Of a stretch of DNA of 64,000 nucleotides, positions 152 through 48,888 are shown one piece after another. Position numbers and translations under genes: made by a program. Source of the stretch: Candidatus Rokuibacteriota bacterium. GTDB lineage: Bacteria > Methylomirabilota > Methylomirabilia > Rokubacteriales > CSP1-6. The notes under the pieces were generated by a model. The model had not been told where the DNA came from and made no database searches. It was given only the letters and a program-made list of their open reading frames with translations. Positions within the stretch are counted from its first letter, which is position 1. The number at the start of each line of letters is the position of its first letter. The stretch spans positions 1 through 64,000 of the forward strand of contig JACPDG010000052.1 in the NCBI GenBank assembly GCA_016184125.1, given 5' to 3'.

Positions 152-167
152 CGCAATCACCGCGCCA
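152..167 (-). promoter_or_regulatory. sigma-54 promoter (-24/-12)
   Basis: On the minus strand the site reads TGGCGCGGTGATTGCG. It has GG and GC separated by 10 nt and TTGC at -12, matching the TGGCAC-N5-TTGCA consensus well. It lies 27 bp before the ATG of the partial gene ending at 125. Confidence 0.7.
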
Positions 168-233
168 GATCGGTCGAAAGACAGTAACCGCGCGTTACGA
201 GCCCTCGGGGTCTTCTCCGGGTGCTGCACGCGT

Positions 234-285
234 GACTTTTCGTCGAAGTCGAGTCGAGGGCCGCGCGGGTGGCTGACGCATTGTC
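234..285. promoter_or_regulatory. paired palindromic activator site
   Basis: GACTTTTCGTC (234-244) and GACGCATTGTC (275-285) start 41 bp apart. The nearer copy is 67 bp upstream of the -24 element at 152-167. Same architecture as nine other loci in the window. Confidence 0.7.
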
Positions 286-371
286 GGCGCGTCGCGGCAC
301 GTGGGTGCGAGAGCCTCGCGATGTCCCATCAGGAAGGCGAGCACGGCGAGCCCAACGAACGCCCCGCCGCT

Positions 372-419
372 GACGGAATGTCGCGCCGGCCGCCTTCCTG
401 GCGATTCAGTCGGAATGCG
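372..419. promoter_or_regulatory. palindromic activator site, second copy degenerate
   Basis: GACGGAATGTC (372-382) is a good copy. A degraded partner, GTCGGAATGCG (409-419), lies 37 bp on. The block resembles the pair at 22335-22386 in front of the paralogous small-protein locus. It probably serves the copA operon, but spacing and second copy are off-consensus. Confidence 0.45.
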
Positions 420-485
420 GGACGGATGCCCCACCGCGCCGGAGCACAGACCGTTGCAGGTGACGACCCCGGTCAAGTCTCGTCA

Positions 486-502
486 ATACCCGGTATGGGT
501 AT
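486..502. promoter_or_regulatory. CsoR-type copper operator, box 1
   Basis: ATACCCGGTATGGGTAT is a perfect 6-bp inverted repeat (ATACCC/GGGTAT) around 5 bp. This is the known form of CsoR operators in front of copper efflux genes. It lies 180 bp upstream of the copper ATPase start. Confidence 0.65.
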
Positions 503-588
503 ATCTGCTTTGCGGCGCCGCGCATGTGGTGCTGGAACGCGTGGACGAGTGATCGCGGGGCGGGACCGTCCTGCCGGGGCCGCCGGAT

Positions 589-604
589 TGGCCTCGATCT
601 TGTA
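589..604 (+). promoter_or_regulatory. candidate -24/-12 promoter of the copA operon
   Basis: TGGCCTCGATCTTGTA has the -24 GG and the correct 10-nt spacing, but TTGT instead of TTGC at -12. It is the best sigma-54-like match before copA. CsoR box 2 begins at its last base, so repressor binding would cover -12 to about +5. Confidence 0.35.
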
Positions 605-620
605 TACCCCCTCCGGGTAG
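604..620. promoter_or_regulatory. CsoR-type copper operator, box 2
   Basis: ATACCCCCTCCGGGTAG repeats the ATACCC-N5-GGGTAT pattern with one mismatch in the right arm. It is 62 bp before the copA ATG. Confidence 0.6.
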
Positions 621-681
621 CTGGTATCGGGGCGAGCGCTCGCCGCGCTCGGCCCCGAGACCGGAAGGAGGACAGTCAGAC

Positions 682-2757
682 ATGGCAATCGAGGTCGGCA
701 CCTTCGGACCGGCCACGGGCGTCGTGACCGCGGCGCCACCGGCGGTCCCGGACGCGCTCGAGCGGGAGACGGTCGCGCGCGGGCGCGAGTACCGCTCGCT
801 CATGCGCAAGTGGTGGTTCGGCGCCTCCATCGGCGTCGTTACGATGGTCATGAGCTACCCGTGGCTCTTCCCGGTGCTGCGGGAGTGGTTCCCGCGCGAG
901 AGCGCGCAGCTCTGGTGGGTGTGGGCGGGGATGGGTGTGGCGTCGCTCGCGGTGCTCGCCTACAGCGGCAACCAGTTCTTCACGGGCGCCTGGCAGGGGC
1001 TCCGGCACCGCTCGGCGAACATGCACACGCTGATCGCGATGGGGACCGGGATCGCCTGGGTCTACTCGACGATCGCCCTCCTGGTCCCCGAGCTGTTCCC
1101 GGCGTCCGAGTACACCGAGGTGTATTACGACGTCACCGTCGTGGTCACGGCGCTCGTCGTGCTGGGCCTGGCGATGGAGCTCAGGGCGAAAGGGCGAACC
1201 TCGGACGCGATCAAGAAGCTGATCGGGCTCCAGGCGAAGACCGCGCGGGTGGTGCGCGACGGCCAGGAGATCGACGTGCCGGTGGAGGCGGTCGCGGTCG
1301 GCGATCTCGTGGTCGTGCGCCCGGGGGAGAAGATCCCGGTCGACGGCGAGATCGCCGATGGCGCCTCCGCCCTCGACGAGTCGATGGTCACCGGCGAGTC
1401 GATGCCGGTGGAGAAGCGGGTCGGCGACGACGTGATCGGCGCCACCATCAATCGGACCGGCGCCTTCCGGTTCCGGGCGACCAGGGTCGGCAAGGACACG
1501 GCGCTCGCGAGCATCATCCGCATGGTCCAGGACGCCCAGGGCTCGAAGGTCCCGGTCCAGCGGATCGTCGACGTGGTCTCGGGCTACTTCACGCCGGCGG
1601 TCGCGATCCTGGCGATCCTCGGCTTCATGGCCTGGTACACCTTCGGGCCGGCCCCGGCCCTCGTGTACGCGCTGATCGTCGCGGTGACGACGCTGATCAT
1701 CGCCTGCCCGTGCGCGCTCGGCATGGCGACGCCGATGTCGCTCACGACCGGGGTCGGCCTCGGCGCGCTCAACGGGATCCTCATCCGCGGCGGCGAGGCG
1801 CTCCAGACGGCGCAGAAGCTCCAGACGATCGTCCTGGACAAGACGGGCACGATCACGCACGGCAAGCCCGTGTTGACCGATGTCGTGGTCGCTGGCCCCT
1901 TCCCGGAGGACGAGCTGCTCCGCCTCGCCGGTGGCGTCGAGAAGTCCTCGGAGCACCCTCTGGCCGCCGCGATCGTGGAAGCGGCGGTGGCCCGCGGCCT
2001 CGCGCTTCCGGACGCCGAGGCGTTCAACGCGGTTCCGGGGCACGGCATCGAGGCCCGCGTGGACGGCCGATCGGTCTTGCTGGGGAACCTCAAGCTCATG
2101 CGCGATCGCGAGGTCCCGGTCGGCACGCTCGAGGCCGAGGCCCTGCGGCTGTCCGACGAGGGCAAGACGCCGATGTACGTGGCGATCGACGACAAGCCCG
2201 CAGGCATCGTCGCGGTCGCCGATACCGTCAAGGCGGACTCCCGGGAAGCGATCCGCGCGCTGAGCGCGATGGGACTCGAGGTCGTGATGATGACCGGTGA
2301 CAACGAGCGCACCGCCCGCGCCATCGCGCGCGAGGTCGGGGTCGAGCGCGTGCTGAGCGAGGTGCTGCCCGAGGACAAGGCGGCGCAGGTCCAGATGCTC
2401 CAGCTCGAGGGCAAGACGGTCGGCATGGTCGGCGACGGCATCAACGACGCGCCGGCCCTGGCGCAGGCGGACGTGGGGTTCGCCATCGGCACCGGCACCG
2501 ACGTGGCCATCGCCGCCTCGGACATCACGCTGATCAAGGGCAGCTTGCGGGGCGTGGTGATGGCGATCCAGATCAGCCGGGCGACGATGCTCGGGCTGCC
2601 GGTCGCGCTCGGCGCGCTCTACCCGGTGTTCGGGATCCTCCTGTCGCCGCTCCTGGCCGCGCTGGCCATGTCGTTCAGCTCGGTGACCGTGATCGCCAAC
2701 GCCAACCGGCTCAAGCGCTGGAAGCCGAAGGGGCTCCCGAGGAGGGCAGAGGCATGA
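682..2757 (+). CDS. copA: P1B-type copper-exporting ATPase, lacking an N-terminal HMA domain
   Basis: A 691-residue P-type ATPase that should pump Cu(I) across the inner membrane using ATP. Visible motifs: TGES of the actuator domain near residue 238, the CPC metal-binding triad near 342 in membrane helix 6, DKTGT with the phosphorylated Asp near 386, the SEHP motif near 424, TGDN near 538 and GDGINDAP near 584. The last helix has [12 protein letters not shown], like the copper-type helix 8. The N-terminus is short and has no CxxC metal-binding domain, unlike the second ATPase at 45.3 kb. The start is supported by GGAAGGAGGAC upstream. Its stop overlaps the next ATG (ATGA). CsoR boxes upstream support copper regulation. 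Confidence 0.93.
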
Positions 2758-3134
2758 CGTGGGACACCATCGTCGTCAACGCGGTCGGTCTTGCGCTGAT
2801 CGCGTTCATCGTCTGGTTCTTCTGGCTGGTCAAGACGAAGGGCGCGCGGGCGGCGCTCACGAGCGGCGGGTACCAGGAGCAAATGGTCCTGGTGAAGGGC
2901 GGCTACACGCCCGACGCGATCGTGGTCGAGCGCGGCAAGCCCGTCCGCCTGAACTTCGTCCGGCAGGAGTCGGCGGCGTGCAGCGAGATGGTGCTGCTGC
3001 CGGCGTTCGGCAAGAGCGCGAACCTGCCCGAGGGTGAGACGGTCGCGGTCGAGTTCATGCCGGCGGAGCCGGGCGAGTACGAGTTCAGCTGCCAGATGGG
3101 GATGCTCCGCGGGCGGGTCATCGTCGAAGCGTGA
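2754..3134 (+). CDS. membrane-anchored cupredoxin
   Basis: A 126-residue protein with an N-terminal membrane helix (residues about 6-28, [16 protein letters not shown]) and a C-terminal cupredoxin beta-sandwich. Candidate metal ligands are the Cys in ESAACSEM, the Cys in [10 protein letters not shown] and the flanking Met residues. The ATG overlaps the copA stop by four bases, so the two are translationally coupled. It probably binds copper on the outer face of the membrane and hands it to, or takes it from, the ATPase. Family assignment is firm; the direction of copper transfer is inference. Confidence 0.85.
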
Positions 3135-3147
3135 GGAGGACAAGGAC

Positions 3148-3396
3148 ATGGAATGGCTGCAGGCGAACTGGCTCTGGCTGCTGCTGGGACTCGGCGTGGT
3201 GTGGTTCCTCTTCCGCGGCGGCGGCTGCGGCATGGGCGGGCACGGATCGCATGATTCGGGACAGCAGAGAGACACGATCGGCGACTCCCCCGCCGAGCAC
3301 GGCGCGCATAACGGCGCCGGCTCACATGACGGACATCGCCGCGACGAAGCGACGGCGGCTCCCCGCGGCGAGCGCAGGCACCGCGGAGGCTGCTGA
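3148..3396 (+). CDS. small membrane protein with Gly/Cys/His-rich tail (DUF2933-like)
   Basis: 82 residues: one membrane helix (WLQANWLWLLLGLGVVWFLF), then GGGCGMGGHGSH, and a His-rich hydrophilic tail ending HRGGC. Such Cys/His-rich tails suggest metal binding, but no function is established. GAGGAGGAC precedes the ATG, 14 bp after the cupredoxin stop. A near-identical paralogue is at 22679-22927, more distant relatives are at 44314 and 47716, and a C-terminal fragment is at 16715. All intact copies sit in or next to copper genes. The DUF2933 label is from memory of the motif pattern. Confidence 0.8.
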   Translation: MEWLQANWLWLLLGLGVVWFLFRGGGCGMGGHGSHDSGQQRDTIGDSPAEHGAHNGAGSHDGHRRDEATAAPRGERRHRGGC

Positions 3397-3422
3397 GCCG
3401 AGGACGGGAAAGAGGTGACACG

Positions 3423-5327
3423 GTGGAACCGAGACAGCAGACGTTCTCGATCTGGTACTTCCTGGCGGCGCTCGTCGGGCTGCTGCTGCTGCAGTCCGTC
3501 CTGTTCCGGCCGCACGCGGAGGACCTCACCTACAGCGACTTCAAGACGCTGCTCGGGAAGGGCAAGGTCGTCGAGGTCACGCTCGACCGGCAGGCGATCA
3601 CGGGGATGGTGACCGCCGACGGGCTCGAGGCCGTGCTGCCCAAGGAGAAGATCGAGGGGCTCGAGCGCTACGGCAAGGGCGCGCACCGCTTCGTGACGGC
3701 GCGGGTCGACGACCCGAGCCTCGTCCCGGCGCTCGAAGCGGCCAAGGTGAAGTTCACCGGGCGCGTGGAGAACACCTGGCTGTCGACGCTGCTCTCCTGG
3801 GTGCTCCCCGCGGTGGTCTTCGTGGGCGTGTGGTCGCTTCTCATGCGGCGCATGAACCCGACGGGGGGGCTCATGTCGATCGGCAAGAGCCGGGCGAAGG
3901 TCTACGTCGAGAAGAGCACGGGCGTCACGTTCGACGACGTCGCGGGGATCGACGAGGCGCGCGCCGAGCTGGTGGAGCTCGTGGACTTCCTGAAGTCACC
4001 CGATCGGTACCGCCGGCTGGGTGGCCGCATTCCCAAGGGGGCTCTCCTCGTCGGCCCGCCGGGCACCGGCAAGACGCTCCTGGCCAAGGCGGTCGCCGGC
4101 GAGGCCGGCGTGCCGTTCTTCAGCCTGAGCGGGTCGGACTTCGTGGAGATGTTCGTCGGCGTAGGCGCGGCGCGCGTGCGCGACCTCTTCGAGCAGGCTC
4201 AGGCGAAGGCGCCGACCATCATCTTCATCGACGAGCTGGACGCGCTCGGCAAGGCCCGCGGCGTGGGCCCGGTGGTCGGGGGCCACGACGAGCGCGAGCA
4301 GACGCTGAACCAGCTCCTCGCGGAGATGGACGGCTTCGACACGGAGAAGGGCGTCATCATCCTGGCCGCCACCAACCGGCCGGAGATCCTCGATCCGGCG
4401 CTGCTCCGCCCCGGCCGCTTCGACCGGCAGATCGTCATCGACCGTCCCGACCTCAAGGGGCGAGAGAAGATCCTCGCCGTCCACACGCGAGGCGTGACGC
4501 TCGCGCCGTCCGTGGACCTCGGGCTCATCGCGGCGCGGACGGCGGGGTTCGTCGGCGCCGACCTCGCCAACCTGGTGAACGAGGCCGCCCTCGGCGCCGC
4601 CCGCGGCGGCAAGGCCACGGTGGAGATGGAGGACTTCGACGCCGCGATCGACCGCATCGTCGGTGGGCTCGAGCGGAAGTCCCGCGTCATCTCCCCCCGC
4701 GAGAAGGAGATCGTCGCGTACCACGAGGCCGGGCACGCGCTCGTGGCCGAGAGCCGGCCGCACGCCGATCGGGTGGCGAAGATCTCGATCATCCCGCGCG
4801 GGGTCGCCGCGCTCGGGTACACGCAGCAGCAGCCGACGGAGGACCGGTACCTGATGACGCGGGCCGAGCTGCTCGACCGCCTCGACGTCCTGCTCGGCGG
4901 CCGGGTGGCCGAGGAGATTGTCTTCGGGGACGTGTCCACGGGCGCTCAGGACGACCTCCAGAAGGCGACGGACCTCGTGCGCCACATGGTGACGCGCTAC
5001 GGGATGAGCGAGACCCTGGGCCTGGCGGCGCTCGAGGGACCGCGGCACCCGCTGTTCCTCCAGGTGCCCGGGGCGAGCGCGCGGGAGTACAGCGAGCGCA
5101 CGGCGGCGGCGATCGACGACGAGGTGCAGGTCCTGCTCCAGGCGGCGCACGACCGGGCGCGGGAGACGCTGACGGCCCGGCGCAGCGCGCTCGAGGCGCT
5201 CGGAAAGCTCCTGATCGATCGAGAGGTCGTCGACGGGGAGAACGTCCGGCGCCTGATCGCGGCCCACGATCCTGCCCGAGAGAGCGCCGACAACCTGGCC
5301 TGCAGTGACGATGGCCCGACGACGTGA
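3423..5327 (+). CDS. ftsH: ATP-dependent zinc metalloprotease FtsH
   Basis: 634 residues with a GTG start. Two membrane helices (about 9-27 and 119-141) flank a periplasmic domain. The AAA module has Walker A GPPGTGKT at 211-218, Walker B IIFIDE near 266-271 and the second region of homology ending RPGRFDR. The zinc site is HEAGH at 434-438 with an Asp ligand in TGAQDDLQ. It unfolds and degrades damaged or unassembled membrane proteins. It sits in the copper ATPase operon and is followed by HtrA, with HflK and HflC convergent downstream. The context suggests a membrane protein clearance module induced with copper stress, perhaps beside a housekeeping FtsH elsewhere. Confidence 0.95.
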
Positions 5328-6516
5328 AAGTGAGAAAGCGATGCTGAAAAGGATGCGCACGTGGCTCGTCGCGATCGGTGGTACCGCCCTGTTCCTGGTG
5401 CTCGCGTACGTGTTCTACGCCGGAGGCATGCAGCTGACAGCGTCGTCCGCGTCGCCTCCCGGAGGATCGTCGGTCGCGCTGCCCGCAGCGTCGGCCGCCC
5501 CGCCCCCGCCGGCGGGCGCTCACCCGGAGTCGTTCGCGGGCATCGCGGAGGCCGTGAAGCCGGCCGTCGTCAACGTCGCCACGGTCGGGCCCGCGGCGGG
5601 CGCGGGCCCACGCGGGCTGGACCCGTACCGCGAGTTCCTGGAGCGCTACTTCGGGGAGGGCGCGGTGCCGGCCGAGCCGCGCCAGAGCCTCGGCTCCGGC
5701 GTGATCGTGGATCAGGAAGGCTTCGTCGTCACCAACAACCACGTGATCGAGAACGCCCGGATGATCATGGTGCGGCTCGGCGACGAGGAGGAGTACGAGG
5801 CGCGCGTGGTGGGCCGCGACCGCGCCACCGACCTGGCGCTGCTGAAGATCGACGCCCGCCGGACGTTTCCGGCCGCGAGGCTCGGTGACTCGGACGCGCT
5901 CCGCGTCGGCGAGTGGGTGCTCGCCATCGGAAGCCCGTTCGGGCTCGAGCAGACGGTGACGGCCGGGATCGTGAGTGCGAAGGGCCGCGTGATCGGCGCG
6001 GGCCCGTACGACGACTTCATCCAGACCGACGCGGCTGTCAACCCGGGGAACTCCGGGGGGCCGCTGCTCACCACCCGGGGCGAGGTCGTGGGCATCAACA
6101 GCGCGATCTTCAGCCAGAGCGGCGGCTCGATCGGCATCGGCTTCGCGATCCCCATCAACCTCGCGAAGGAGCTGATCCCGCAGTTCAAGGCTCGCGGGCG
6201 CGTGTCGCGCGGCTGGCTCGGCGTCGCCATCGCTCCGCTCACGCCGGACCTGGTGAAGCGACTGGGCCGCGCGACCCGCGACGGCGCGCTCGTCACCGAG
6301 GTGGTCGCGGGTGGCCCGGCCGCCCGGGCGGGAGTGCGCGCCGGCGACCTGATCGTCGCGTTCCGGGGTGCATCCGTCCGTCGCGCCGGGGAGCTGCCAC
6401 GCCTCGTCGCCAAGGCGCCGGCAGAAAGCACGGCGGAGGTCACGCTGGTGCGCGAGGGCCGCGAGCAGACGGTGAGGATCACGCTCGGAGAGCTCCCCGA
6501 GCGGCCGCGACGGTGA
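5311..6516 (+). CDS. HtrA/DegP-type periplasmic serine protease with one PDZ domain
   Basis: About 400 residues. An N-terminal signal anchor (WLVAIGGTALFLVLAYVF) is followed by a low-complexity Ala/Pro linker and a trypsin-like domain with His in TNNHVIEN, Asp in ATDLALLK and Ser in NPGNSGGP. One PDZ domain covers about the last 100 residues. It should degrade or chaperone misfolded proteins on the outer face of the membrane. The frame opens at GTG 5305. ATG 5311 overlaps the ftsH end and ATG 5341 would clear it; none has a strong ribosome binding site, so the exact start is open. Confidence 0.9.
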   Translation: MARRRESEKAMLKRMRTWLVAIGGTALFLVLAYVFYAGGMQLTASSASPPGGSSVALPAASAAPPPPAGAHPESFAGIAEAVKPAVVNVATVGPAAGAGPRGLDPYREFLERYFGEGAVPAEPRQSLGSGVIVDQEGFVVTNNHVIENARMIMVRLGDEEEYEARVVGRDRATDLALLKIDARRTFPAARLGDSDALRVGEWVLAIGSPFGLEQTVTAGIVSAKGRVIGAGPYDDFIQTDAAVNPGNSGGPLLTTRGEVVGINSAIFSQSGGSIGIGFAIPINLAKELIPQFKARGRVSRGWLGVAIAPLTPDLVKRLGRATRDGALVTEVVAGGPAARAGVRAGDLIVAFRGASVRRAGELPRLVAKAPAESTAEVTLVREGREQTVRITLGELPERPRR

Positions 6517-8767: not shown

Positions 8768-8772
8768 TCCTG

Positions 8773-12491: not shown

Positions 12492-14456
12492 TCACCTCCT
12501 ACCGGAGCGCTCGAGAGCGCCGATTTCGGCCAGGAGCTCGTCGATCCGGTCTTCGTGGATCACGAGGTTCAACCGCTTGACCAGCTCCCGCTCCATCCGG
12601 GCCAGCACCTCCCGGTGGCGATCGCGGCGGAGGTCGGCCCGGACCTGCTCCTTCGCCTGATCGAAGGGAAGCGGCGGCAGCTCCTGCCGCTCCCGGACCT
12701 TCACGATGTAATAGCGGTCCCCGAGGGGGATCACCCCGCTGACGTCGCCCGCCCGCAGAGACAGGATCTCGGTCATGGCCGCGTGGGATTCGAGGTCCAT
12801 CAGGGCGCCGCCTGGATGCGTGAACCAGCCGTCCGCCTCTCCGCCCTTCTGTGCCGTCTCCCGGTCGTCAGAGACCTCTCGGGCGACCGCGGCGAAATCC
12901 TCTCCCCGGCGCCAGAAGAGGAGCCGGGGCGGCCGGACCCGCTCCTGGGCCGCGTTAGCCTTGGCCCATGGTTGCCGGTCAGCCTCCTCCGTGTCTCCCC
13001 GTCGGATCTCGATGAGGCTGATCTTCAATCGAGGGAGCGGCTGATAGCGGGACAGGTTCTTCTGGAAATACCGCTTGAGGTCTTCCTCCGTGGGTTCCTT
13101 CTCGGCCGCCATCTCGTCCTGGTGGAGCATCTCGGCGAGGATGTGGCGCCGCGTCTCCTCGATGTCCGCCTTGTTTCTTAGATCTGCCATCCGTCCGGAG
13201 GCGGTCTGCAGGATCAGGAGCCGATCGATGAGCCGGTCGAGAAGCTTGAGCTTCCCCTCGAATCCCTCGAAGTCACGCCGGTGCTCGGGCGCGATGGATT
13301 CCGCTTCGGCGAGGAAGTCGCCCAGCGTGTACCGCTGCCCGTTGACCACCACCAGGGTCCGGGCCTTGTTCTCGGCGTAGCGCTGCCGCTCGCGCTCGGC
13401 CTGGAGGATCGACCGGATCTCTCCCTCGACTTCTTCGAGGGCCCGACGGCGCTCCCGCCGCCGTTCCAGGACCCGCACGACGAAGTAGCTGTTGGCGTCC
13501 TGGAACGCCGGGCTCAGGTCCCCCTGGGCGAGGGACAGCACGTTGGCGTCGAAGGCCGGCCCGCGGCTGCCCCGGGCTTCGAACCGCTCCCGCCGGGCCG
13601 CCCATCCCCCAACTGCGGCGGCGACGGCCTCGAGGTCCTCACCCGCCTGGAGCCTTGCCCGCGCCTTCTCCGCCCGCGCCCGCGCGTCGTCGGCATTCCC
13701 CGTGGCATCGATCTGGATCTCCTCGATCCGCACCCGGTCCGGCTCGACGAACCGGCCCCGATCGGCGAGGTAGTAGGTGGTGACCTCCTCGCGGGAAGGC
13801 TCCGCCACTCGCAGCAGCTCCGTGTCCACGGTGATCGTGGCCCCGTCCCGCAGTTGTTTCAGGAAGGCCCGGGAGGCTGCCTCTTCCTTGCCGGCGTGGA
13901 GGACGCTCTGGATCTCGTCCCGGACCTGAGTGAGGGTTCGATCCTTGAATCGCTCCCGATTCGCCTCGAAGTACTGCCGGATCTCCTCTTCGGCGACCCG
14001 CACCTCGGATTCGTGGAACCGCTTCTCCACATCGTGGATGCTGATCTCCTGCGTGGCCTCCCGCATGGCGCGGGAGAACATCTCGCGGGCATCCAGCCGG
14101 CGCTGCCGCGCCCACCGCTCGGTCACGGCGTGCACCGCCTGGCTCTGGATCACGAGGGCCAGCCCGTGCGGGCTCAGCATCGCCGCCCGCTCCTCGGGCG
14201 GTGCCGTCCGCCATCGCTCGATGAGCGCCTCACGGGTGATCGTCCCTCCCTCGTAGGCCGCGACGATGTTCCGGTCGGGGTGGTATCCCCGCCCCCACGA
14301 CGACCGCAAGGCGAGCCCCGCAACGATGGCCAGCGCCAGCACCAGGCCCACCGCCAGCCGGAACCTCCATCGGCGCCCGGTGGCGTTCTCTCCCACCGCA
14401 GCGGGTTCAGCCGAAACGCGCTCCGGCTCGACCGCGTCCGTCGCGTGCTCTCCCAT
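12492..14456 (-). CDS. membrane-anchored parvulin-type peptidyl-prolyl isomerase/chaperone (PpiD/SurA-like)
   Basis: 654 residues. A soluble N-terminal tail is followed by a membrane helix (LAVGLVLALAIVAGLAL, about 33-50) and a large periplasmic part with two PpiC-like stretches, around residues 210-320 and 450-590. It is rich in charged helices, as in PpiD and SurA. It should help fold or hold exported proteins. It is the first gene of the operon that continues with CDF-HflK, HflC and HflK. A near-consensus sigma-54 promoter lies about 263 bp upstream at 14719-14734. Confidence 0.82.
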   Translation of the reverse strand: MGEHATDAVEPERVSAEPAAVGENATGRRWRFRLAVGLVLALAIVAGLALRSSWGRGYHPDRNIVAAYEGGTITREALIERWRTAPPEERAAMLSPHGLALVIQSQAVHAVTERWARQRRLDAREMFSRAMREATQEISIHDVEKRFHESEVRVAEEEIRQYFEANRERFKDRTLTQVRDEIQSVLHAGKEEAASRAFLKQLRDGATITVDTELLRVAEPSREEVTTYYLADRGRFVEPDRVRIEEIQIDATGNADDARARAEKARARLQAGEDLEAVAAAVGGWAARRERFEARGSRGPAFDANVLSLAQGDLSPAFQDANSYFVVRVLERRRERRRALEEVEGEIRSILQAERERQRYAENKARTLVVVNGQRYTLGDFLAEAESIAPEHRRDFEGFEGKLKLLDRLIDRLLILQTASGRMADLRNKADIEETRRHILAEMLHQDEMAAEKEPTEEDLKRYFQKNLSRYQPLPRLKISLIEIRRGDTEEADRQPWAKANAAQERVRPPRLLFWRRGEDFAAVAREVSDDRETAQKGGEADGWFTHPGGALMDLESHAAMTEILSLRAGDVSGVIPLGDRYYIVKVRERQELPPLPFDQAKEQVRADLRRDRHREVLARMERELVKRLNLVIHEDRIDELLAEIGALERSGRR

Positions 14457-14718: not shown

Positions 14719-14734
14719 CGCAAAGGCGGTGCCA
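14719..14734 (-). promoter_or_regulatory. sigma-54 promoter of the PpiC/HflK operon
   Basis: Minus strand TGGCACCGCCTTTGCG, an almost exact match to TGGCAC-N5-TTGC. It is the best-scoring by eye in the window. Confidence 0.7.
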
Positions 14735-14809
14735 GGCGGCGAGGGCGTACAAATGCCCTTTCAGAACCGCGGTGGCCCTGCAGCGGTGCCGGGCGCCGCG
14801 GGAACCGCT

Positions 14810-14861
14810 GCCAAGTTGACGGTGAGGACGTCGGAGACCGGTCGCGCTCGGACATTCTGGC
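14810..14861. promoter_or_regulatory. paired palindromic activator site, degenerate
   Basis: GCCAAGTTGAC (14810-14820) and GACATTCTGGC (14851-14861) start exactly 41 bp apart and lie 76 bp from the -24 element. Each has one or two core mismatches. The geometry matches the strong sites. Confidence 0.5.
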
Positions 14862-16833: not shown

Positions 16834-17468
16834 CTACTTCTTCAGCGGCCAGTAGTGATTGGCGGCGAAGTCGTACGGCGGGTACATGAAGCGCCGCCCG
16901 GGAACCACGACGGCCGCATACCTCCGCTGCGACTCCAGCACCTTCTTGAAGAACGGGTTCGCCGCCGCCTCTTTCTCGGCGACACGGTTCCACGAGTTCG
17001 AGAACGTTGTGAGCACGTCATCCGGCGTCCGCATGACCTGGACCTTGAACTCCTCCTGCAGCCGCTTCAGCCGATGTAGTCCACGTAGTCCATGCCGAAG
17101 GTGCCGCCGGGTCCGCCGGTCATGAGCACCGCCGCCTTGTTCTTGCCAACCCAGTAGCCCGCCCAGGCATGGGCGCCGTCGATCACCCGCTTGGACGTCG
17201 CCTCCAGCACTTCGAACGCCGGGACGATGGCGCCGGCCGGGAGGGTCTCGATCTTCAGGCGGCCCCCCGACATCTTCTCGACGCGCTCGGCGAACATCTT
17301 GAAGTTGTCGTAGAGCATCGAGGCTGCCGGCCAGGCGGCCTGCACCTTGAGCACGCGCGGGGCCTGGGCGGTGGCGCCGCCGGGCGCGCGGGCTCCTGCG
17401 ACGAGCAGCATGGTGACGACCGAGAAGGTCACGATGATGCGCCTCCGACGAGCACCCTTCCGTCTCAT
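16834..17468 (-). pseudogene. TRAP transporter substrate-binding protein with internal deletion and frameshift
   Basis: The N-terminal part (17067-17468) has a signal peptide and runs from APRVLKVQAAWPAASMLYDN to GGTFGMDYVDYIG. It then meets a stop because the next bases belong to the C-terminal part in another frame (LQEEFKVQVMRTPDDV to AANHYWPLKK, stop at 16834). Compared with the intact paralogue at 57865-58992, about 175 residues are missing between DYIG and LQEE. The gene still has a sigma-54 promoter and paired activator sites upstream. Confidence 0.88.
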
Positions 17469-17545: not shown

Positions 17546-17561
17546 CGCAAGAGCCGCACCG
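17546..17561 (-). promoter_or_regulatory. sigma-54 promoter of the TRAP receptor pseudogene
   Basis: Minus strand CGGTGCGGCTCTTGCG: GG and GC 10 nt apart, TTGC at -12. It lies 78 bp before the ATG at 17468. Confidence 0.6.
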
Positions 17562-17648
17562 GACGAACGGACGCCGGGAGCCACACGTCACCCGGTACTT
17601 GGACGGGACTGTCCAATCAGGCTCCCGGGCCCGGCGGCAACGACGGAG

Positions 17649-17700
17649 GACTTTTCGTCGAATTCACCGCGCGCTGTGAAGAGGCGGCCGACATTTCGTC
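17649..17700. promoter_or_regulatory. paired palindromic activator site
   Basis: GACTTTTCGTC (17649-17659) and GACATTTCGTC (17690-17700) start 41 bp apart; the nearer is 88 bp from the -24 element. Confidence 0.65.
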
Positions 17701-19366: not shown

Positions 19367-19417
19367 GACAGGATGTCCGAGCCCGCCCGCCCTGGTCCCA
19401 CGCATTGACTGAAAGTC
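19367..19417. promoter_or_regulatory. paired palindromic activator site
   Basis: GACAGGATGTC (19367-19377) and GACTGAAAGTC (19407-19417) start 40 bp apart; the nearer ends 86 bp before the -24 element. Confidence 0.7.
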
Positions 19418-19502
19418 GGGCGCGTCAGACGGCGTAAGGCCTGAGGCGGCGGGGATCTCCGGTCGCTGCCGGCCGCATCCTCGATCCCGCTGCGCGCGCG
19501 TG

Positions 19503-19518
19503 TGGCGCGCGTGTTGCT
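19503..19518 (+). promoter_or_regulatory. sigma-54 promoter of the UPF0182 gene
   Basis: TGGCGCGCGTGTTGCT: GG and GC 10 nt apart with TTGC. About 112 bp before the ATG at 19630. Confidence 0.65.
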
Positions 19519-22334: not shown

Positions 22335-22386
22335 GACCGAATGTCGCGCCAGTCGGCCGGCGTTCGGCCGATTTCGCCGGAATGTC
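22335..22386. promoter_or_regulatory. paired palindromic activator site
   Basis: GACCGAATGTC (22335-22345) and GCCGGAATGTC (22376-22386) start 41 bp apart. The block resembles 372-419 upstream of copA. Confidence 0.65.
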
Positions 22387-22459
22387 GGCCGACCGGCGGC
22401 ACTGGAGCAGCAGCCCGGGAATACCGTCGCCCGTTCCCGGAGTTGTATCGCACCCGTCG

Positions 22460-22475
22460 TGGTCCCGGTCTTGCC
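22460..22475 (+). promoter_or_regulatory. sigma-54 promoter
   Basis: TGGTCCCGGTCTTGCC: correct GG-N10-GC spacing and TTGC, 74 bp after the paired site. Confidence 0.6.
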
Positions 22476-22678: not shown

Positions 22679-22927
22679 ATGGAATGGCTCCAGGCGAACT
22701 GGCTGTGGCTACTGCTGGGACTCGGTGTGGTGTGGTTCCTCCTCCGCGGTGGAGGCTGTGGCATGGGCGGGCACGGATCGCATCGCTCCGGAGACCGGCG
22801 AGACACGATGGGCGACTCCCGCGCTGAGCACGGCGTGCATGACGGCGGGGGCGCACACGACGGACAGCGGCGCGGCGAAGCGATCGCGGCTCCGCGCGAC
22901 CAGCACAGGCATCGGGGATGCTGCTGA
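22679..22927 (+). CDS. small membrane protein with Gly/Cys/His-rich tail, paralogue of 3148-3396
   Basis: 82 residues with the same MEWLQANWLWLLLGLGVVWF helix and GGGCGMGGHGSH motif as the copA-operon copy, ending HRGCC. AGGAGGACAGGGAC precedes the ATG. Upstream it keeps the CsoR box and activator sites of the copA locus, but the ATPase and cupredoxin are absent. Downstream (about 22935-22975) the bases GACACGGTG resemble the ftsH start region at 3415-3425, but the frame stops within seven codons. So this is a truncated duplicate of the copper operon that kept the regulator and the small protein. Confidence 0.78.
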   Translation: MEWLQANWLWLLLGLGVVWFLLRGGGCGMGGHGSHRSGDRRDTMGDSRAEHGVHDGGGAHDGQRRGEAIAAPRDQHRHRGCC

Positions 22928-26367: not shown

Positions 26368-26454
26368 CGAAGTCTGGCACCGACCTTGCCGCTCCCCAGA
26401 GTCTGCGGCGCATCGCGGCGCAATCCTCGCGCCGCTCGGACAGGAGATACTCCG

Positions 26455-31594: not shown

Positions 31595-31935
31595 CGCACT
31601 TCTCCGTCGAGCTGGGCGTAGTAGACCTTGGGCTGGGTGTTGAGCGACGGCTTGAGCACGTGGATCCTGTTCATGCGGGTGAAGCGCACCAGCCGGCTCG
31701 CCTTGCTCCGGAGGTCCCCGAAAATCCGCGCCTGGGTCGGACACGCCTCGACGCACGCGGGCAACAGGCCCGTGGCGACCCGGTGGTAGCAGAACGTGCA
31801 CTTGTCGGCCACCCTGGCCCTTGGATCGAGATAGCGCGCGCCGTACGGGCACGCCTGGATGCAGTAGCGGCATCCGATGCAGCGGTCTCTATCGACGAGG
31901 ACGACCCCATCCTCTGTCGAGAACGTCGCCTGCCG
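31591..31935 (-). pseudogene. ferredoxin-type subunit, C-terminal fragment
   Basis: Frame with CIGCRYCIQACPYGARYL, CTFCYHRVATGLLPACVEAC and a C-terminal tail PKVYYAQLDGEVR. The normal N-terminal third, with the first two cluster motifs and the start, is missing. The homology begins at EDGVVLVDRDR, and upstream bases belong to the CsoR-like/STAS gene in another frame. It is coupled to the NrfD gene by ATGA. Either a real deletion or a joining error removed about 80 residues. Confidence 0.75.
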
Positions 31936-32724: not shown

Positions 32725-32776
32725 GACATCATGTCGAACATCCGCCCGGTCGCCGCAGAGCGACGGACGTTCTGTC
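32725..32776. promoter_or_regulatory. paired palindromic activator site
   Basis: GACATCATGTC (32725-32735) and GACGTTCTGTC (32766-32776) start 41 bp apart, 87 bp before the -24 element. Confidence 0.75.
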
Positions 32777-32862
32777 AGCCGGCCTTGCGTGGTGGCCGCG
32801 CTTCGAGCCTCTCACGCGAGGCGCCAATCAGGCGCGCTCCGCGCAGTTCCTCGGCGCCCACG

Positions 32863-32878
32863 TGGCTCGGCCGTTGCA
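32863..32878 (+). promoter_or_regulatory. sigma-54 promoter
   Basis: TGGCTCGGCCGTTGCA, differing from TGGCACG-N4-TTGCA at one position. It serves the small membrane protein gene at 33002. Confidence 0.75.
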
Positions 32879-33001: not shown

Positions 33002-33235
33002 ATGTCTGTCGGGTGGCCGCGAGCGCGAGGGCTCGGAGGGAGGCGCGGAGCCCGGCGCGACCGGTCGTTCACCGCCGTCGCGGTGGCCGTCTGGATCGGC
33101 ACGTTGCCCTTCGTCTTCCTGCTGGTGACGCCGCTGCACGGCGTGCGCGCGGCGGTGATCACCGCTGTCGCCATGCTGATCGGGCTCGTCGTCGTCTGCT
33201 GGGCGATCTGGGCCTGGCAACCGCCCGAGGAGTGA
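33002..33235 (+). CDS. small two-helix membrane protein
   Basis: 77 residues: basic N-terminus, then two membrane helices (VAVWIGTLPFVFLLVTPL and ITAVAMLIGLVVVCWAIW). CAGGAGGG precedes the ATG. A paralogue with nearly the same helices is at 44813-45037 in the second copper ATPase operon. No known family. The sigma-54 promoter and activator pair upstream are among the cleanest in the window. Confidence 0.75.
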   Translation: MSVGWPRARGLGGRRGARRDRSFTAVAVAVWIGTLPFVFLLVTPLHGVRAAVITAVAMLIGLVVVCWAIWAWQPPEE

Positions 33236-34242: not shown

Positions 34243-34740
34243 CTACCTCCCAGCCAGGACCGCCGGCGCTGGCGGCTGCTCCTGGCGGAAGTACCGCATG
34301 TAGATCTCCTCGAGCGTGTAGCGCTCGTGGCCGAGCCCCAGCGACCGCCGAGCGAGCTCGGCGATGGGGCCCGCGGCCGCGAGCCGTCCGCCGAGCATGA
34401 TGCCGACGCGGTCGCTGATTCGCTGGACCTGGTCGAGGAGGTGAGAGGAGAAGAGGACCGTGATGCCGCGCTCGCGGCTCAGCGACTGGATCAGCAAGAG
34501 CATCCGCTGGGTCCCGTCGGGGTCCAGCCCGACGGTGGGCTCGTCGAGGAAGACCACGCGCGGCTGCTTGACCAGGACCTCCGAGTACTCGGTGGAGACC
34601 GCGATGCCTCGCTCCGGCCGATCCGGCCTGTCCCTCGGCTCCGCCGCGCGCGGGGGGGCGGCCAGGATCGACGCGACGAGCGAGAGAGCCACGACGAGCA
34701 GCCAGCGCTTCGAGGGTGCGGAGAGAGCCCGATGTGTCAT
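34243..34740 (-). pseudogene. in-frame chimera: secreted protein N-terminus joined to the C-terminal half of an ABC ATPase
   Basis: 165 residues, one open frame. Residues 1 to about 56 are a signal peptide (WLLVVALSLVASILAA) plus the start of a secreted NEW3-like domain (GIAVSTEYSEVLVK). The rest is an ABC ATPase from Walker B (VVFLDEPTVGLDPDG) through the H-loop (LFSSHLLDQVQRISDR) to its end. Walker A and the signature motif are missing, so it cannot hydrolyse ATP alone. Probably two adjacent genes were fused by a deletion of more than 1 kb, or by an assembly collapse. Confidence 0.8.
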
Positions 34741-34838: not shown

Positions 34839-34854
34839 CGCAAGAGGGATGCCG
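34839..34854 (-). promoter_or_regulatory. sigma-54 promoter
   Basis: Minus strand CGGCATCCCTCTTGCG: correct spacing and TTGC. About 99 bp before the ATG at 34740. Confidence 0.65.
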
Positions 34855-34932
34855 CGCCGCCGCCAGGTAGAAACGCGCACGATCCCAGCGCAATCGGCGG
34901 GAACGACGGAACGGAAGTCGCCGCCGTCGGCT

Positions 34933-34984
34933 GACAGAACGTCGAACGAGGCTGGTCGCGGGGAAGCGGGACCGACATTCTGCC
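34933..34984. promoter_or_regulatory. paired palindromic activator site
   Basis: GACAGAACGTC (34933-34943) and GACATTCTGCC (34974-34984) start 41 bp apart, 79 bp from the -24 element. Confidence 0.7.
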
Positions 34985-38437: not shown

Positions 38438-38602
38438 TCAGGCCGAGGCCGGCTTCCGGGGCTCGGCATACTTGTCGGGATTCTTCTCGAACGTCGCCTT
38501 GCAGCCCGGCGCGCAGAAGAAGTACGTCTTGCCCTGGTGGACGGCGGTCGCGGCTGGCTTCTTCTCGTCGACGTGCATCCCGCAGATCGGATCCTTGGCC
38601 AT
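38438..38602 (-). CDS. YHS-domain metal-binding protein
   Basis: 54 residues: KDPICGMHVDEKKPAAT, then KTYFFCAPGCKATFEKNPDKY. The YHS domain binds soft metals and is often found in copper ATPases and metallochaperones; here it stands alone. It leads the operon YHS, CuA-like cupredoxin, CcdA-like, methyltransferase, CcdA-like, lipoprotein. A sigma-54 promoter and paired activator sites are upstream. Confidence 0.88.
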   Translation of the reverse strand: MAKDPICGMHVDEKKPAATAVHQGKTYFFCAPGCKATFEKNPDKYAEPRKPASA

Positions 38603-38647: not shown

Positions 38648-38663
38648 AGAAAGATGCATGCCA
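38648..38663 (-). promoter_or_regulatory. sigma-54-like promoter
   Basis: Minus strand TGGCATGCATCTTTCT: a full -24 element with correct spacing, but TTTC in place of TTGC. It is 46 bp before the YHS gene start. Confidence 0.5.
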
Positions 38664-38738
38664 GGCCACAGGCGGCCGAGCCGGAAGGAATGGCCACGAC
38701 ATACGACGCGGCTTCCGCCGAGCACGCGGCGGCCCGCC

Positions 38739-38790
38739 GACAGGATGGCGAATCGACGCGCCCGGCCGGAGCGCCGGCTGACATTCTGTC
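38739..38790. promoter_or_regulatory. paired palindromic activator site
   Basis: GACAGGATGGC (38739-38749) and GACATTCTGTC (38780-38790) start 41 bp apart, 76 bp from the -24 element. Confidence 0.7.
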
Positions 38791-42321: not shown

Positions 42322-42322
42322 C

Positions 42323-44278: not shown

Positions 44279-44313
44279 GCGGCCGTCCTCACGTGCGCGG
44301 CATCCATCGCGGA

Positions 44314-45037: not shown

Positions 45038-45136
45038 GGGGGGACTATCGATGCCCCCGACTCTGGTACGAAGGGGACGCACCCGTGGTGCGCGGACGCA
45101 CCCGCCACAGCTGTGGCGCTCCTCGGCCACCGGATT
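45036..45136 (-). repeat. dispersed repeat, copy C
   Basis: On the minus strand it starts GAATCCGGTGGCCGAGGAGCG, has GCCACAGCTGTGGC palindrome and ends ATAGTCCCCCCAT. It ends exactly at the start codon of the gene at 44813-45037. Confidence 0.6.
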
Positions 45137-45139
45137 CCT

Positions 45140-45343
45140 TCACGGCTCTCCATCCGTGCGGTCTCCGCTCCGTCGCGCGAGGAGCGGCAGCGTGACGATC
45201 GTGGCCAGGAAGAACACCCAGACGGAGCCCCCCACCACCGCGAGCGGCGGCGCCTCCGCGAAGAGTCGCGCGAGCACGAAGAACGCCGCGGCGGCAGCCA
45301 GCGAGACGACCGGGGCGCGAAGACCCGCGAGAGAGCGCTTCAT
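45140..45343 (-). CDS. small membrane protein
   Basis: 67 residues with two helices ([19 protein letters not shown] and [21 protein letters not shown]). The ATG overlaps the stop of the copper ATPase (ATGA), so it is translated with it. Similar small proteins after CopA-type ATPases may assist metal transfer, but no motif is visible. Confidence 0.65.
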
Positions 45344-47667
45344 GCGCCCGCCTCCCATCGCGCCGGATCGCTGAACGCCGGCCGGAACCCCTTCAGCAGG
45401 AGCGTGTTCAAGGTCACGGAGAGCGAGCTCACCGCCATCAGGAGCGCGGCGAGCTCGGGGCTGACCACGAGGCGCCAGAAGGGATAGAGCAGGCCCGCGC
45501 CGGCCGGGATCGCGAGCGTGTTGTACGCGAAGGCCCAGAAGAGGTTCTGCTTGACCTTGCGCATCGTGGCGCGCGCGACCTCGAGCGCGACGACCACGTC
45601 GCGGAGGTCGTCCTTCAGCAGGATGACGTGGCCCGTCTCCTTCGCCACGTCGGTGCCGGAGCCGATCGCGATCCCGACCTCGGCCTGGGCCAGCGCGGGC
45701 GCGTCGTTGATGCCGTCGCCGACCATCGCGACGCGCCGTCCCTCGCCCTGCAGGCGCGCGACCTCGGCCGCCTTCGCCTCGGGGAGCACCTCGGCGAGGG
45801 CATGGTCGATGCCGACGGCGCGCGCGATCGCGTCCGCGGTCCGCCGGTTGTCCCCGGTGAGCATCAACGTGGACAGACCCATTCGGTGGAGCGCGGCGAC
45901 CGTCTCGCGCGCGAACGGCTTCAGCGTGTCGGCGCACGCGACGATGCCGGCGAGACGATCGTCGACCGCAAGGAGCATCGCGGTCTTGCCCTCGGACTCG
46001 AGCGCGCGGAGCCGCGGCTCCTCGCCGGAGGCGTCGATGCCGCGAAGCGCCATCAAGCGCCGCGTGCCGAGCAGGAGCTTGCGCCCCTGCCACGCCGCCT
46101 CGACGCCGTGCCCGGGGATGGCCTCGAACGAGTCGGGGCGCTCGACGGCCAGGCCCTCGGCCCGCGCCGCCCGGACGATGGCCTCGCCGAGCGGATGCTC
46201 GGAGGCCACCTCGGCGACCGCGGCCCAGCCGAGCACCTGCTCGCGCCGGATGCCGGCGACCGTCAGCACCTCCGTGACAGAGGGCTCGCCGCGCGTGAGC
46301 GTCCCGGTCTTGTCGAAGACGATCGTGTCGAGCTTCGTCGTGGCCTCGATCGCGTCGGCGCCCTTGAAGAGCACGCCGTGCTGGGCGCCCTTGCCCGTGC
46401 CCGCCATCATCGCGCTCGGCGTCGCCATCCCGACGGCGCAGGGACACGAGATCACGAGCACGGTGATCGAGAGCAGGAGCGCGAAGCCGAAGACGCCGAT
46501 CGCGCCCAGCGTGCCGGGCGAGAGGATGAACGACGAGGCCGGATCGAAGAAGACGCGGTAGCCGACGAGGAACCAGAACACGAACACGGCGAGCGCGAGG
46601 GCGTGCACGCCGAGGATGAAGTGCCCCGCGACCCAGTCCGCCAGGCGCTGGATCGGCGCTTTCGACGCCTGCGCGTCCTCGACGAACCGGATGATCTGCG
46701 CGAGCGCCGTCTCGCTGCCCACGCGCGTGGCGCGGAAGCGGAAGGCGCCGGTCTTCACGAGCGTGCCACCCATCACCGTGGCGCCCGCCTGCTTCTCGAC
46801 GGGGAAGCTCTCGCCGGTGAGCATGGACTCGTCGACCGCCGAGTAGCCGTCCAGGACCTCGCCGTCGACCGGGATGCGCTCGCCGGGCCGCACGAGGACG
46901 ACGTCGCCGGCCCGGACCTCGTCCGCCGGGACTTCACGCTCCTCGCCGTCGCGGACGATGCGCGCCAGCGCCGGCTTGAGCGACAGGAGCTTCCGGATGG
47001 CCTCCGACGTGCGCCCGCGCGTCAGCGCCTCCAGGTACTTCCCGAGGATGATGAAGGCCGTCAAGAGCGCCGCCGACTCGAAGAAGATCGCGCGCTCGCC
47101 GCCGAACCCGGCGTCCGGGAACAGCGTGTTGAGCACACCGATCAGGTAGGCGGCGCCGATCCCCGTCGCGTAGAGCAGGTTCATGTCCGTGACGCCGCGG
47201 CGCAGCCCGCGCGCGCTCTGCACGAAGAACTGCCAGCCGGCGCCGAGCACGACCGGCGTGGTCAGGAGCAGCAGCACGAGCGGCCGGCCGAGCGCCTCCG
47301 GCACGACGTCGCGCAGCACCGCGAAGTCGCGGAAGGTGCCGGCCATGATCAGCATCGAGAGCGGCCAGGCGACGAGCATCCACCGCCGCTGGCGCGCGGT
47401 CTCGGCCTGCCTCAGGGCCTGCTCGCGGTCGAGCGCCGCCTGCCCCTCGAGCTTGTCCTCGGCGGTGTATCCGAGGTCAGCGACCGCCTCCTTGATCCGA
47501 GCCGGGCCGACGCGCGCAGGATCGAACGCGACGCGCGCGAGCCCGGGCTCGAGGCTGACCGTGACCTGACCGATGCCGTCGAGGAGACCGATCGCCTCCT
47601 CGACGCGCGAGGTGCAGCTGGCGCAGTGCATGCCGCTGATGCGGAACGTCTGGTGCTCGACCGCCAT
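45340..47667 (-). CDS. copA: P1B-type copper ATPase with N-terminal HMA domain
   Basis: 775 residues. An N-terminal HMA domain carries the GMHCASC copper site. The core has TGES in [29 protein letters not shown] with the membrane CPC triad, [27 protein letters not shown] and [12 protein letters not shown]. The last helix has [14 protein letters not shown], as in Cu(I) pumps. It differs from the first ATPase (682) by having the HMA domain and more typical text, so the two may do different jobs, such as efflux and cuproenzyme loading. It precedes the ccm genes in the same direction. Confidence 0.94.
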
Positions 47668-47715
47668 CGCTGGCTCCTTACCTCGGTTCGAGCAACAACC
47701 GAGTCGCTCGAGCTC

Positions 47716-47952
47716 TCAGTGGCAGCCGCCGCTGCGCGCCGAGCGCGCACGCGCCTCGGGTGTCGTGGCTGCCCTCGCCGGATCTCCATCAGCCCCGTCC
47801 AGCTCGCCGTCGTGTGGCCCGTCGAGGCCGGTTCCCGGCGCCTGGCGCTCGCGTCGATGAGCGGACCCGCAGCCTGCGCCGAACCAGTGCATCGCGAGGA
47901 AGACGCCGGCGAGCACGATCCAGAGCCCGTAGCTCCTCATGAACTCGTCCAT
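47716..47952 (-). CDS. small membrane protein with Cys/His motif
   Basis: 78 residues: one helix (YGLWIVLAGVFLAMHWFG) followed by AGCGSAHRRE and a tail ending RSARSGGCH. It has the same design as the 3148 and 22679 proteins, and its C-terminal end matches the fragment at 16715. It lies 48 bp upstream of the copper ATPase and directly downstream of a strong sigma-54 promoter, so it heads that operon. Confidence 0.75.
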   Translation of the reverse strand: MDEFMRSYGLWIVLAGVFLAMHWFGAGCGSAHRRERQAPGTGLDGPHDGELDGADGDPARAATTPEARARSARSGGCH

Positions 47953-47994
47953 CTTCGTCCTCCCGGAGCGGCGCTGCCGCTCGCAGGGAGAGAG

Positions 47995-48010
47995 GGCAAG
48001 GGCGATGCCA
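47995..48010 (-). promoter_or_regulatory. sigma-54 promoter of the second copper ATPase operon
   Basis: Minus strand TGGCATCGCCCTTGCC, 43 bp before the ATG at 47952. Confidence 0.75.
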
Positions 48011-48084
48011 CGCCTACGTTCGTGAAAGCGCTCGGTTCCTGGAGGATTCGAGCTTCAGGTCCTCGCCGACCGACGCCGGCGGAT

Positions 48085-48136
48085 GACGGAACGTCAGGAG
48101 CAGCGAGAGCGGAGCGGAAGGGACCGACAAACTGTC
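48085..48136. promoter_or_regulatory. paired palindromic activator site
   Basis: GACGGAACGTC (48085-48095) and GACAAACTGTC (48126-48136) start 41 bp apart, 75 bp from the -24 element. Confidence 0.75.
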
Positions 48137-48192
48137 AACGGGATTTTGGGGGGTTCCGGGGTGCGACAGGAGCGGTGGGGACCGCGAAAGCA

Positions 48193-48232
48193 CAGCGGCC
48201 CCCGGGGCGTGAATCCCGGGGGCCGGCCGCTG
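48193..48232 (-). terminator. GC-rich hairpin, possible terminator
   Basis: CAGCGGCCCCCGGG pairs with CCCGGGGGCC-gg-CCGCTG around an 8-nt loop, 11 bp after the stop of the gene at 48244. No clear T-run follows, so termination is only probable. Confidence 0.45.
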
Positions 48233-48243
48233 TAACTGGACCG

Positions 48244-48702
48244 CTATCCCTGAGTGCCGGGAGCGGCGTGATCCATCACGTGACCCGAGGGGCTGATGTG
48301 CAGCATGCGGACGGCACCGCTCGCATCGCGAAGCTCCGCGGTCCACATCGCCATGTGCATGCCGGTGAGTGGCTCGACCTTCACGAACGTGAGGTTGTGC
48401 TCGCCCGCGTAGGCGGTCGCTATCTTTTCGGCGTCCTCCTGCTTCATCTGGGTCGACTGTGCGCCCGCCGCGTCGCCGTGGCAGTCGGTGCCCGCGCCCT
48501 GCTGGCCGTCACCGCCCATCATGCCGCCCATGCCACCCATCATGCCGCCGCCCATCATCCCGCCGCCCATCATGCTGCCCATCCCGCCCATCGTGCCGCC
48601 GCCCATCCCGCCCGTCATCCCTCCGCCCATCTGGGCGAAGGCGACGCCGGCGACGAGGACGAGCGCCGCGAGGGGCAGCGCCACTGTCAGGACTCGTTTC
48701 AT
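48244..48702 (-). CDS. secreted Met/Gly-rich protein with PepSY-like C-terminal domain
   Basis: 152 residues. A signal peptide (VLTVALPLAALVLVAGVAFA) is followed by about 50 residues of Met/Gly repeats (GGMMGGGMMGGM type), a low-affinity Cu(I)-binding composition. The C-terminal domain (EKIATAYAGEHNLTFVKVE to ISPSGHVMDH) resembles a PepSY-like fold. It is exported and probably buffers periplasmic copper. It has its own sigma-54 promoter with paired sites 40 bp apart. Confidence 0.82.
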   Translation of the reverse strand: MKRVLTVALPLAALVLVAGVAFAQMGGGMTGGMGGGTMGGMGSMMGGGMMGGGMMGGMGGMMGGDGQQGAGTDCHGDAAGAQSTQMKQEDAEKIATAYAGEHNLTFVKVEPLTGMHMAMWTAELRDASGAVRMLHISPSGHVMDHAAPGTQG

Positions 48703-48745
48703 CGGTTCGTCTCCTTTCGGTTGGTGAACGTCGCCATGCCACCTG

Positions 48746-48761
48746 CGCAAGCTCGATGCCA
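48746..48761 (-). promoter_or_regulatory. sigma-54 promoter
   Basis: Minus strand TGGCATCGAGCTTGCG, 44 bp before the ATG at 48702. Confidence 0.75.
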
Positions 48762-48837
48762 CGCTTCGACGACGGCGGCTGCCTGCGTTGTCGCGCACTT
48801 CGTGCCGCCGGTTCCCTTCGATCGCCCTCCCCTGACT

Positions 48838-48888
48838 GACGAACTGTCAGCTGCGCACGGCCTGATCGAGCGCGGTTGACACTCTGTC
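48838..48888. promoter_or_regulatory. paired palindromic activator site
   Basis: GACGAACTGTC (48838-48848) and GACACTCTGTC (48878-48888) start 40 bp apart, 77 bp from the -24 element. The site overlaps the 3' end of the cyclase gene. Confidence 0.75.

Follow-up and report, generated by a model that had tools for sequence, protein, structure and literature searches.

The window studied here spans positions 1 to 64,000 of contig C21, its first base being the contig end, and comes from a Candidatus Rokuibacteriota genome of 4.09 Mb in 121 contigs, 93% complete. Within the family of this genome, one member matches Candidatus Rokubacteria bacterium 13_1_40CM_69_27 at 100% identity across 2.5 kb, which makes the window Rokubacterial and presumably part of Methylomirabilota; Rokubacteria are uncultured soil bacteria that have received little study. 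The paired element found at ten loci in this window consists of two copies of the palindrome GAC-N5-GTC, with starts separated by 40 or 41 bp, and, downstream of them at 10 of 10 loci, a -24/-12-like sequence of the sigma-54 type. The window also encodes an NtrC-family sigma-54 response regulator, with a receiver domain, an AAA+ domain bearing GAFTGA and a Fis-type helix-turn-helix (54296-55642, minus strand), and a polytopic membrane histidine kinase (55635-56852, minus strand). Our comparisons suggest that the elements quite probably form a regulon for copper and the envelope that depends on sigma-54 and is run by a two-component system.

Paired elements and the genes they face

We checked the pairs base by base. 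Both copies match GAC-N5-GTC exactly at the expected spacing at 234, 17649, 19367, 32725, 48085 and 48838, while 22335, 34933 and 38739 have a single mismatch confined to one copy. The pair at 14810, on the minus strand, is weak (GCCAGAATGTC and GTCAACTTGGC, three mismatches in total). Thus, the ten pairs reported in the initial annotation stand for nine loci with at most one mismatch, and for 14810 only if three are allowed. That annotation also described the copies as mostly GACA-NNN-TGTC, which was too generous, as 5 of 20 are perfect. In the compiled sites, the distal site is a strong palindrome, TGACA-RAW-TGTCR, and the proximal site is the weaker YGACGTTCYGTCA. All ten loci have a -24/-12-like sequence at the 67-88 bp distance first given for it: measured from the nearer copy to the GG, this is 67, 76, 88, 86, 74, 87, 79, 76, 75 and 77 bp in position order, and TTGC is present in nine of ten, with TTTC at 38648-38663. 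Nine elements are wholly intergenic, though our own gene calls put 85% of the window in coding sequence. Nine face a plausible start 43-327 bp downstream; the earlier statement that every element faces a gene start fails only at 234, which points off the contig end, so that its target, in a window starting at base 1, is not seen.

The strongest element (pair 48085/48126, promoter TGGCATCGCCCTTGCC; 47995-48136, minus strand) faces a CopA-type copper-translocating P-type ATPase with an HMA domain (45340-47667, minus strand). Beside it, the pair 48838/48878 with promoter TGGCATCGAGCTTGCG (48746-48888, minus strand) faces a methionine-rich (Met-rich) periplasmic protein (48244-48702, minus strand). 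This protein has no Pfam match of its own; counterparts elsewhere match LTXXQ/Metal_resist, above the LTXXQ cut-off at L057 and L061 and just below it at L221, and comparable targets occur in four further genomes. A YHS-domain protein (38438-38602, minus strand) is faced by the pair 38739/38780 (one mismatch, promoter TGGCATGCATCTTTCT; 38648-38790, minus strand), and a YHS gene with an element is also found in G011 (L062).

Two targets are small membrane proteins. The pair 22335/22376 (one mismatch, promoter TGGTCCCGGTCTTGCC; 22335-22475, plus strand) faces an 82-residue protein (22679-22927, plus strand), with similar targets at L062 and L199. Its 82-residue relative at 3148-3396 lies in a separate part of the island and is 79% identical; only the copy at 22679-22927 has an element. 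The pair 32725/32766, with promoter TGGCTCGGCCGTTGCA (32725-32878, plus strand), faces a 77-residue two-helix protein (33002-33235, plus strand), and a similar protein with an element is present in G093 (L209). This element has a weaker promoter match on its other side; it and the element at L059 2003 are the two with promoter-like matches on both flanks, and they may serve divergent genes.

The remaining targets are more varied. The pair 19367/19407 with promoter TGGCGCGCGTGTTGCT (19367-19518, plus strand) faces a large UPF0182 membrane protein (19630-22320, plus strand), and the pair 17649/17690, with promoter CGGTGCGGCTCTTGC at 17546-17561 (element 17546-17700, minus strand), faces a short DctP-like open reading frame (ORF) at 17067. 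The pair 34933/34974 (one mismatch, promoter CGGCATCCCTCTTGCG; 34839-34984, minus strand) faces the ORF at 34243-34740 (minus strand) of a NEW3/ABC operon, and a related element is found at L214. In this chimeric and probably rearranged ORF, the N-terminus of a secreted NEW3 protein, as in L214, runs into an ABC-ATPase C-terminus, which suggests a deletion. The weakest element (the degenerate pair, with promoter TGGCACCGCCTTTGC at 14719-14734; 14719-14861, minus strand) faces a PPIC-type peptidyl-prolyl isomerase (PPIase; 12492-14456, minus strand). At the contig edge, the pair 234/275, spaced by 41 bp, has promoter TGGCGCGGTGATTGC at 152-167 (element 152-285, minus strand), and its target would lie past the contig end. 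A third good palindrome, TGACGGAATGTCG at 372, lies 97 bp from this pair and has no partner at 40 or 41 bp.

Copper, quality-control and small membrane proteins had been named as the targets. The copper and small membrane classes hold, and quality control is reduced to a single target, the PPIase faced by the weakest element; FtsH, DegP and the first copper ATPase (682-6516) are served by no element in the window. Copper and the envelope, and not quality control, are the theme of the regulon.

Distribution of the element and its conservation in relatives

To ask how often the pattern arises by chance, we used dinucleotide shuffles and a simple rule fixed without training (copies at 40/41 bp, no more than one mismatch per pair, and a -24/-12 match). 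This rule finds nine loci in the window and a mean of 0.2 per shuffle (40 shuffles). Pairs with at most one mismatch occur seven times at spacing 41 and twice at 40, and the other spacings up to 150 hold at most three each; in related contigs totalling 369 kb, spacing 41 accounts for 15 strong pairs and 40 for six, with at most two at any other. A matrix built from relatives only, with a cut-off of 22 bits, recovers nine of the ten loci (17649 is missed) and gives 14 hits in 100 shuffled windows. The element at 14810 scores 27.2 bits with this matrix, below the best shuffled hit of 28.6 bits, and is therefore the least certain of the ten. Around 39 pairs picked regardless of promoters, an exact TGGCAY-N5-TTGC lies alongside in 15 cases (0.40 expected), mostly 73-78 bp away. 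These results bear out the earlier view that the repeated geometry exceeds chance.

Genome-wide pattern searches for exact pairs at 39-42 bp found six, and those for the promoter-linked pattern seven, all inside the window. Since every exact pair of the genome falls there, the regulon is a regional cluster of about 50 kb and is not scattered across the genome. Across 95 genomes of the same class, matches to the full pattern come mostly from the same family, and a reversed control pattern gives none. In orthologous promoters from other Rokubacterial genera and from more distant class members, both sites are kept while the spacer drifts. For the CopA promoters of seven genomes, identity is 84% at the distal and 73% at the proximal site, compared with 29-52% in flanks and spacer, and the same footprint trend is seen at the promoters of Met-rich, Rieske and small-membrane targets. 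Elements precede CopA ATPases in seven genomes, Met-rich/LTXXQ proteins in five and Rieske proteins in three, and elsewhere they also precede YHS, DUF2933-like and other small membrane proteins. Thus, the genome scan, the shuffle comparison and the alignment of orthologous regions that the initial annotation had proposed all came out in its favor, with the scan adding that the regulon is local rather than genome-wide.

Outside the class, one weak match was found in 32 genomes of other phyla holding the closest regulators. At L101 4611-4655, in Polyangiaceae, a regulator gene whose product has a similar recognition helix precedes TGTCATTTTGTCA and CGCCACGTTGTCC, which are separated by 31 bp, together with a -24/-12-like site; this pair is within the shuffle range and may be due to chance.

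The kinase-regulator pair and a proposed mechanism

The regulator at 54296-55642 has the Walker A sequence GESGTGKE and GAFTGA at residue 221, with the loop intact, and rpoN is present in the host genome. In a tree, regulators fall into three groups: clade A (12 genomes, support 100/99), clade C (G044, G070, G054, G062 and G063) and clade B, a paralog present in most genomes, with the host copy on C73. Elements occur in all 12 clade-A genomes, whose orthologous regulators are 69-82% identical over the full length. Within clade C, an element lies beside the regulator gene in G044, G062 and G063, directly after it in G044 and G063. Counted conservatively over the 95 genomes, elements are present in 15 of 17 carriers of clade A or C and in 3 of 78 others (Fisher p ~1e-12, relatedness ignored). 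The loci L214 (G094:C52) and L219 (G092:C127) were tallied as a single case because they are 99.95% identical across 1961 bp in genomes of two genera, which points to probable cross-binning between metagenome-assembled genomes (MAGs).

The proteins change together with the element. The recognition helix reads GIA(S/T)RTIYR in clades A and C and GIDxxTV in the element-free clade B paralog. Among the kinases, H99 is present in 15/15 of clades A and C and 0/16 of clade B, H42 in 15/15 and 5/16, and H45 in 13/15 and 0/16. In the predicted kinase structure (mean predicted local distance difference test score 74, predicted template modelling score 0.44), the three histidines sit at the start of two neighboring helices, and both starts are expected on one side of the membrane. 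A conserved trio of histidines suggests that the ligand is a metal or heme one and not a redox thiol; judging by these residues and the target genes, we infer a metal site, most simply for copper. Together, these patterns make 54296-55642 and its putative cognate sensor, 55635-56852, the likely regulatory pair for the elements. The sigma-54 regulon first proposed for this region is thus supported by near-empty shuffles, conserved orthologous promoters and co-occurrence with the regulator across the class. The window kinase lacks some 20 residues (LLGxALGHVAxRER) at about residues 150-156, the last membrane helix, that its orthologs have, and it may be altered or mis-assembled.

The comparisons establish the enhancer-promoter architecture, its conservation and its co-occurrence with the regulator clade, the recognition helix and the kinase histidines; regulator binding, activation and copper as the signal we infer from them. 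In the mechanism we propose, the kinase would sense periplasmic metal, most likely copper, through H42, H45 and H99, and phosphorylate the regulator. Regulator dimers would then bind the strong distal TGACA-N3-TGTCR and the weaker proximal YGACGTTCYGTCA, as co-occurrence, recognition helix and gene adjacency suggest. As starts 40-41 bp apart correspond to about four helical turns, both sites would lie on one face of the DNA, where this spacing may help to seed the AAA+ oligomer. NtrC-family activators reach sigma-54 polymerase by DNA looping and open promoters by ATP hydrolysis. Here, looping would carry the GAFTGA loops to polymerase at the TGGCAY-N5-TTGC promoter 67-88 bp downstream, where ATP hydrolysis would open it. 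The predicted output is CopA efflux, Met-rich and ZraP/Spy-like periplasmic binders, YHS and cupredoxin proteins, small membrane proteins and linked respiratory genes. More tentatively, the system could represent copper sensing specific to Methylomirabilota, in which a new histidine site (H42, H45, H99) drives sigma-54 through a rigid two-palindrome enhancer in the role that CueR, CusR or CopY plays elsewhere; we regard this as plausible, at rather less than an even chance.

Several points weigh against a copper regulon run by this pair. UPF0182, the DctP-like ORF, Rieske proteins and the PPIase have no obvious link to copper; the kinase-regulator operon has no upstream element, so that no autoregulation is seen; and G001 and G093 carry elements with no detected clade-A regulator (these MAGs are 90% and 71% complete). 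Fisher p-values overstate the association, because related genomes are not independent, and the main matrix, the relatives-only test excepted, had in its seed set some of the elements that it later recovered. Furthermore, the regulator is assigned by association, and since the genome has about 40 matches to sigma-54 activators, a different one could bind the pair. Another NtrC-family protein, or a metal-responsive repressor, might own the palindromes, the adjacent kinase and regulator being a coincidence; a CsoR-like/STAS gene lies at 31889. We consider this unlikely: elements track the regulators of clades A and C, the recognition helix and kinase histidines co-vary with them, and the sites lie far upstream of -24/-12 promoters, unlike repressor operators.

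A further alternative keeps the sigma-54 architecture and changes the signal to envelope stress, redox state or low oxygen, with copper genes induced for copper-dependent respiration, as in NmpR of Myxococcus xanthus. Rieske, cupredoxin and cytochrome-biogenesis genes are among the targets or neighbors, NmpR governs a P-type ATPase and a cbb3 oxidase under hypoxia (PMC11841059), and ZraSR is viewed as a broader envelope-stress system (PMC7657598). However, the recurring core consists of CopA, Met-rich/LTXXQ, YHS and cupredoxin proteins, and the kinase histidines look like metal or heme ligands, so that a non-copper signal seems possible but somewhat improbable. That the elements are an artefact of chance or composition, a short and flexible motif in 70% GC sequence, we find scarcely credible. 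One locus of ten, 14810, is within reach of shuffles, but the shuffles, the reversed-pattern control, the spacing spectrum and the conservation exclude this explanation and refute it for at least eight loci.

Comparison with known systems and neighboring genes

The closest functional analog of the proposed copper and envelope regulon is ZraSR/ZraP (HydHG) of Escherichia coli and Salmonella. The two share a membrane kinase with an NtrC-family regulator, sigma-54 promoters, metal-linked targets, two palindromic sites and a ZraP/LTXXQ-type periplasmic protein among the targets. In the zraP-zraSR gap of K-12 we find GAGTAAAAATGACTC and GAGTCATTTTTACTC, with starts 31 bp apart, which we take to be the ZraR sites. 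They are of the type GAGT-N7-ACTC, whereas the palindrome here is TGACA-N3-TGTCA at 40-41 bp, so in sequence and spacing our elements are not paired sites of that type. Nor are the proteins ZraR and ZraS themselves, as the regulator scores 426 of 760 bits and the kinase 128 of 479, far under the family cut-offs. The direct ZraR targets in K-12 are only zraP, zraSR and mgtA (PMC7657598), and PMC4987338 lists the ZraR enhancer as unknown. ZraSR is autoregulated, unlike the operon here, which has no element upstream; the good -24/-12 match found at 57568 (minus strand) lacks an upstream pair, and we rejected autoregulation. This near-perfect sigma-54 promoter, which faces genes upstream of the kinase-regulator operon, and another at 26375 (plus strand) both lack a site pair.

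NmpR, of the NmpRSTU system, resembles our regulon in its NtrC-like regulator, two-site layout, sigma-54 promoter and P-type ATPase target: its two palindromes, S1 and S2, keep a preferred spacing, and a P-type ATPase gene heads one of its several target operons (PMC11841059). It differs in its site, GCGCA-N5-TGCGC with gaps of 14-15 bp, and in its soluble heme-based oxygen phosphorelay, where we find a membrane kinase. The NmpR site is absent from the window, and we rejected an NmpR-type regulon. Just past the window, at 65747-66250 of the contig (L068), a second NtrC-family regulator gene lies beside universal stress and CBS-domain genes, a setting that recalls NmpR. GlrR (QseF) of enterobacteria is also an NtrC-family response regulator and shares the half-sites TGTC and GACA, in the opposite order and wider apart, as TGTC-N10-GACA (PMC4987338). 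The GlrR cut-off is 763, and our regulator reaches 378.

PilS-PilR likewise couples a polytopic membrane kinase to an NtrC-family regulator, and the PilR half-site is TGTC; the copper-gene targets set our system apart. PilS is a six-transmembrane kinase (PMC6058289). We rejected PilSR, as a simple motif search found no pilin or pilus-motor motif near the regulators of any clade. In genus g19, one match to the element precedes a prepilin-like gene, and its second site is poor.

In agreement with the remark in the initial annotation that it knew of no described regulon with this exact element, we found no paper in the open-licence literature reporting TGACA-N3-TGTCA as a sigma-54 enhancer. We judge this to be a new regulon of the known NtrC-family sigma-54 type. 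An uncultured phylum thereby gains a regulon with named sensor, regulator, DNA site and targets, each testable in vitro, and a sigma-54 activator for copper control would be unusual. With a strong and a weak site at a fixed 40-41 bp, the pair is a clean natural example in which to see how the geometry of an enhancer seeds the assembly of its activator, and the co-variation of histidines, recognition helix and element between paralogs is a route to specificity from sequence.

Next to the regulator, the genes at 51087-54257 encode a beta-propeller protein (53301-54257), a cupredoxin with a NapH-like membrane protein, and another cupredoxin, with the same neighbors at L061. The beta-propeller is a below-cut-off relative of lactonase-type nitrous oxide reductase (102 of 700 bits) and of hydrazine synthase beta, and these genes possibly encode a split copper enzyme.

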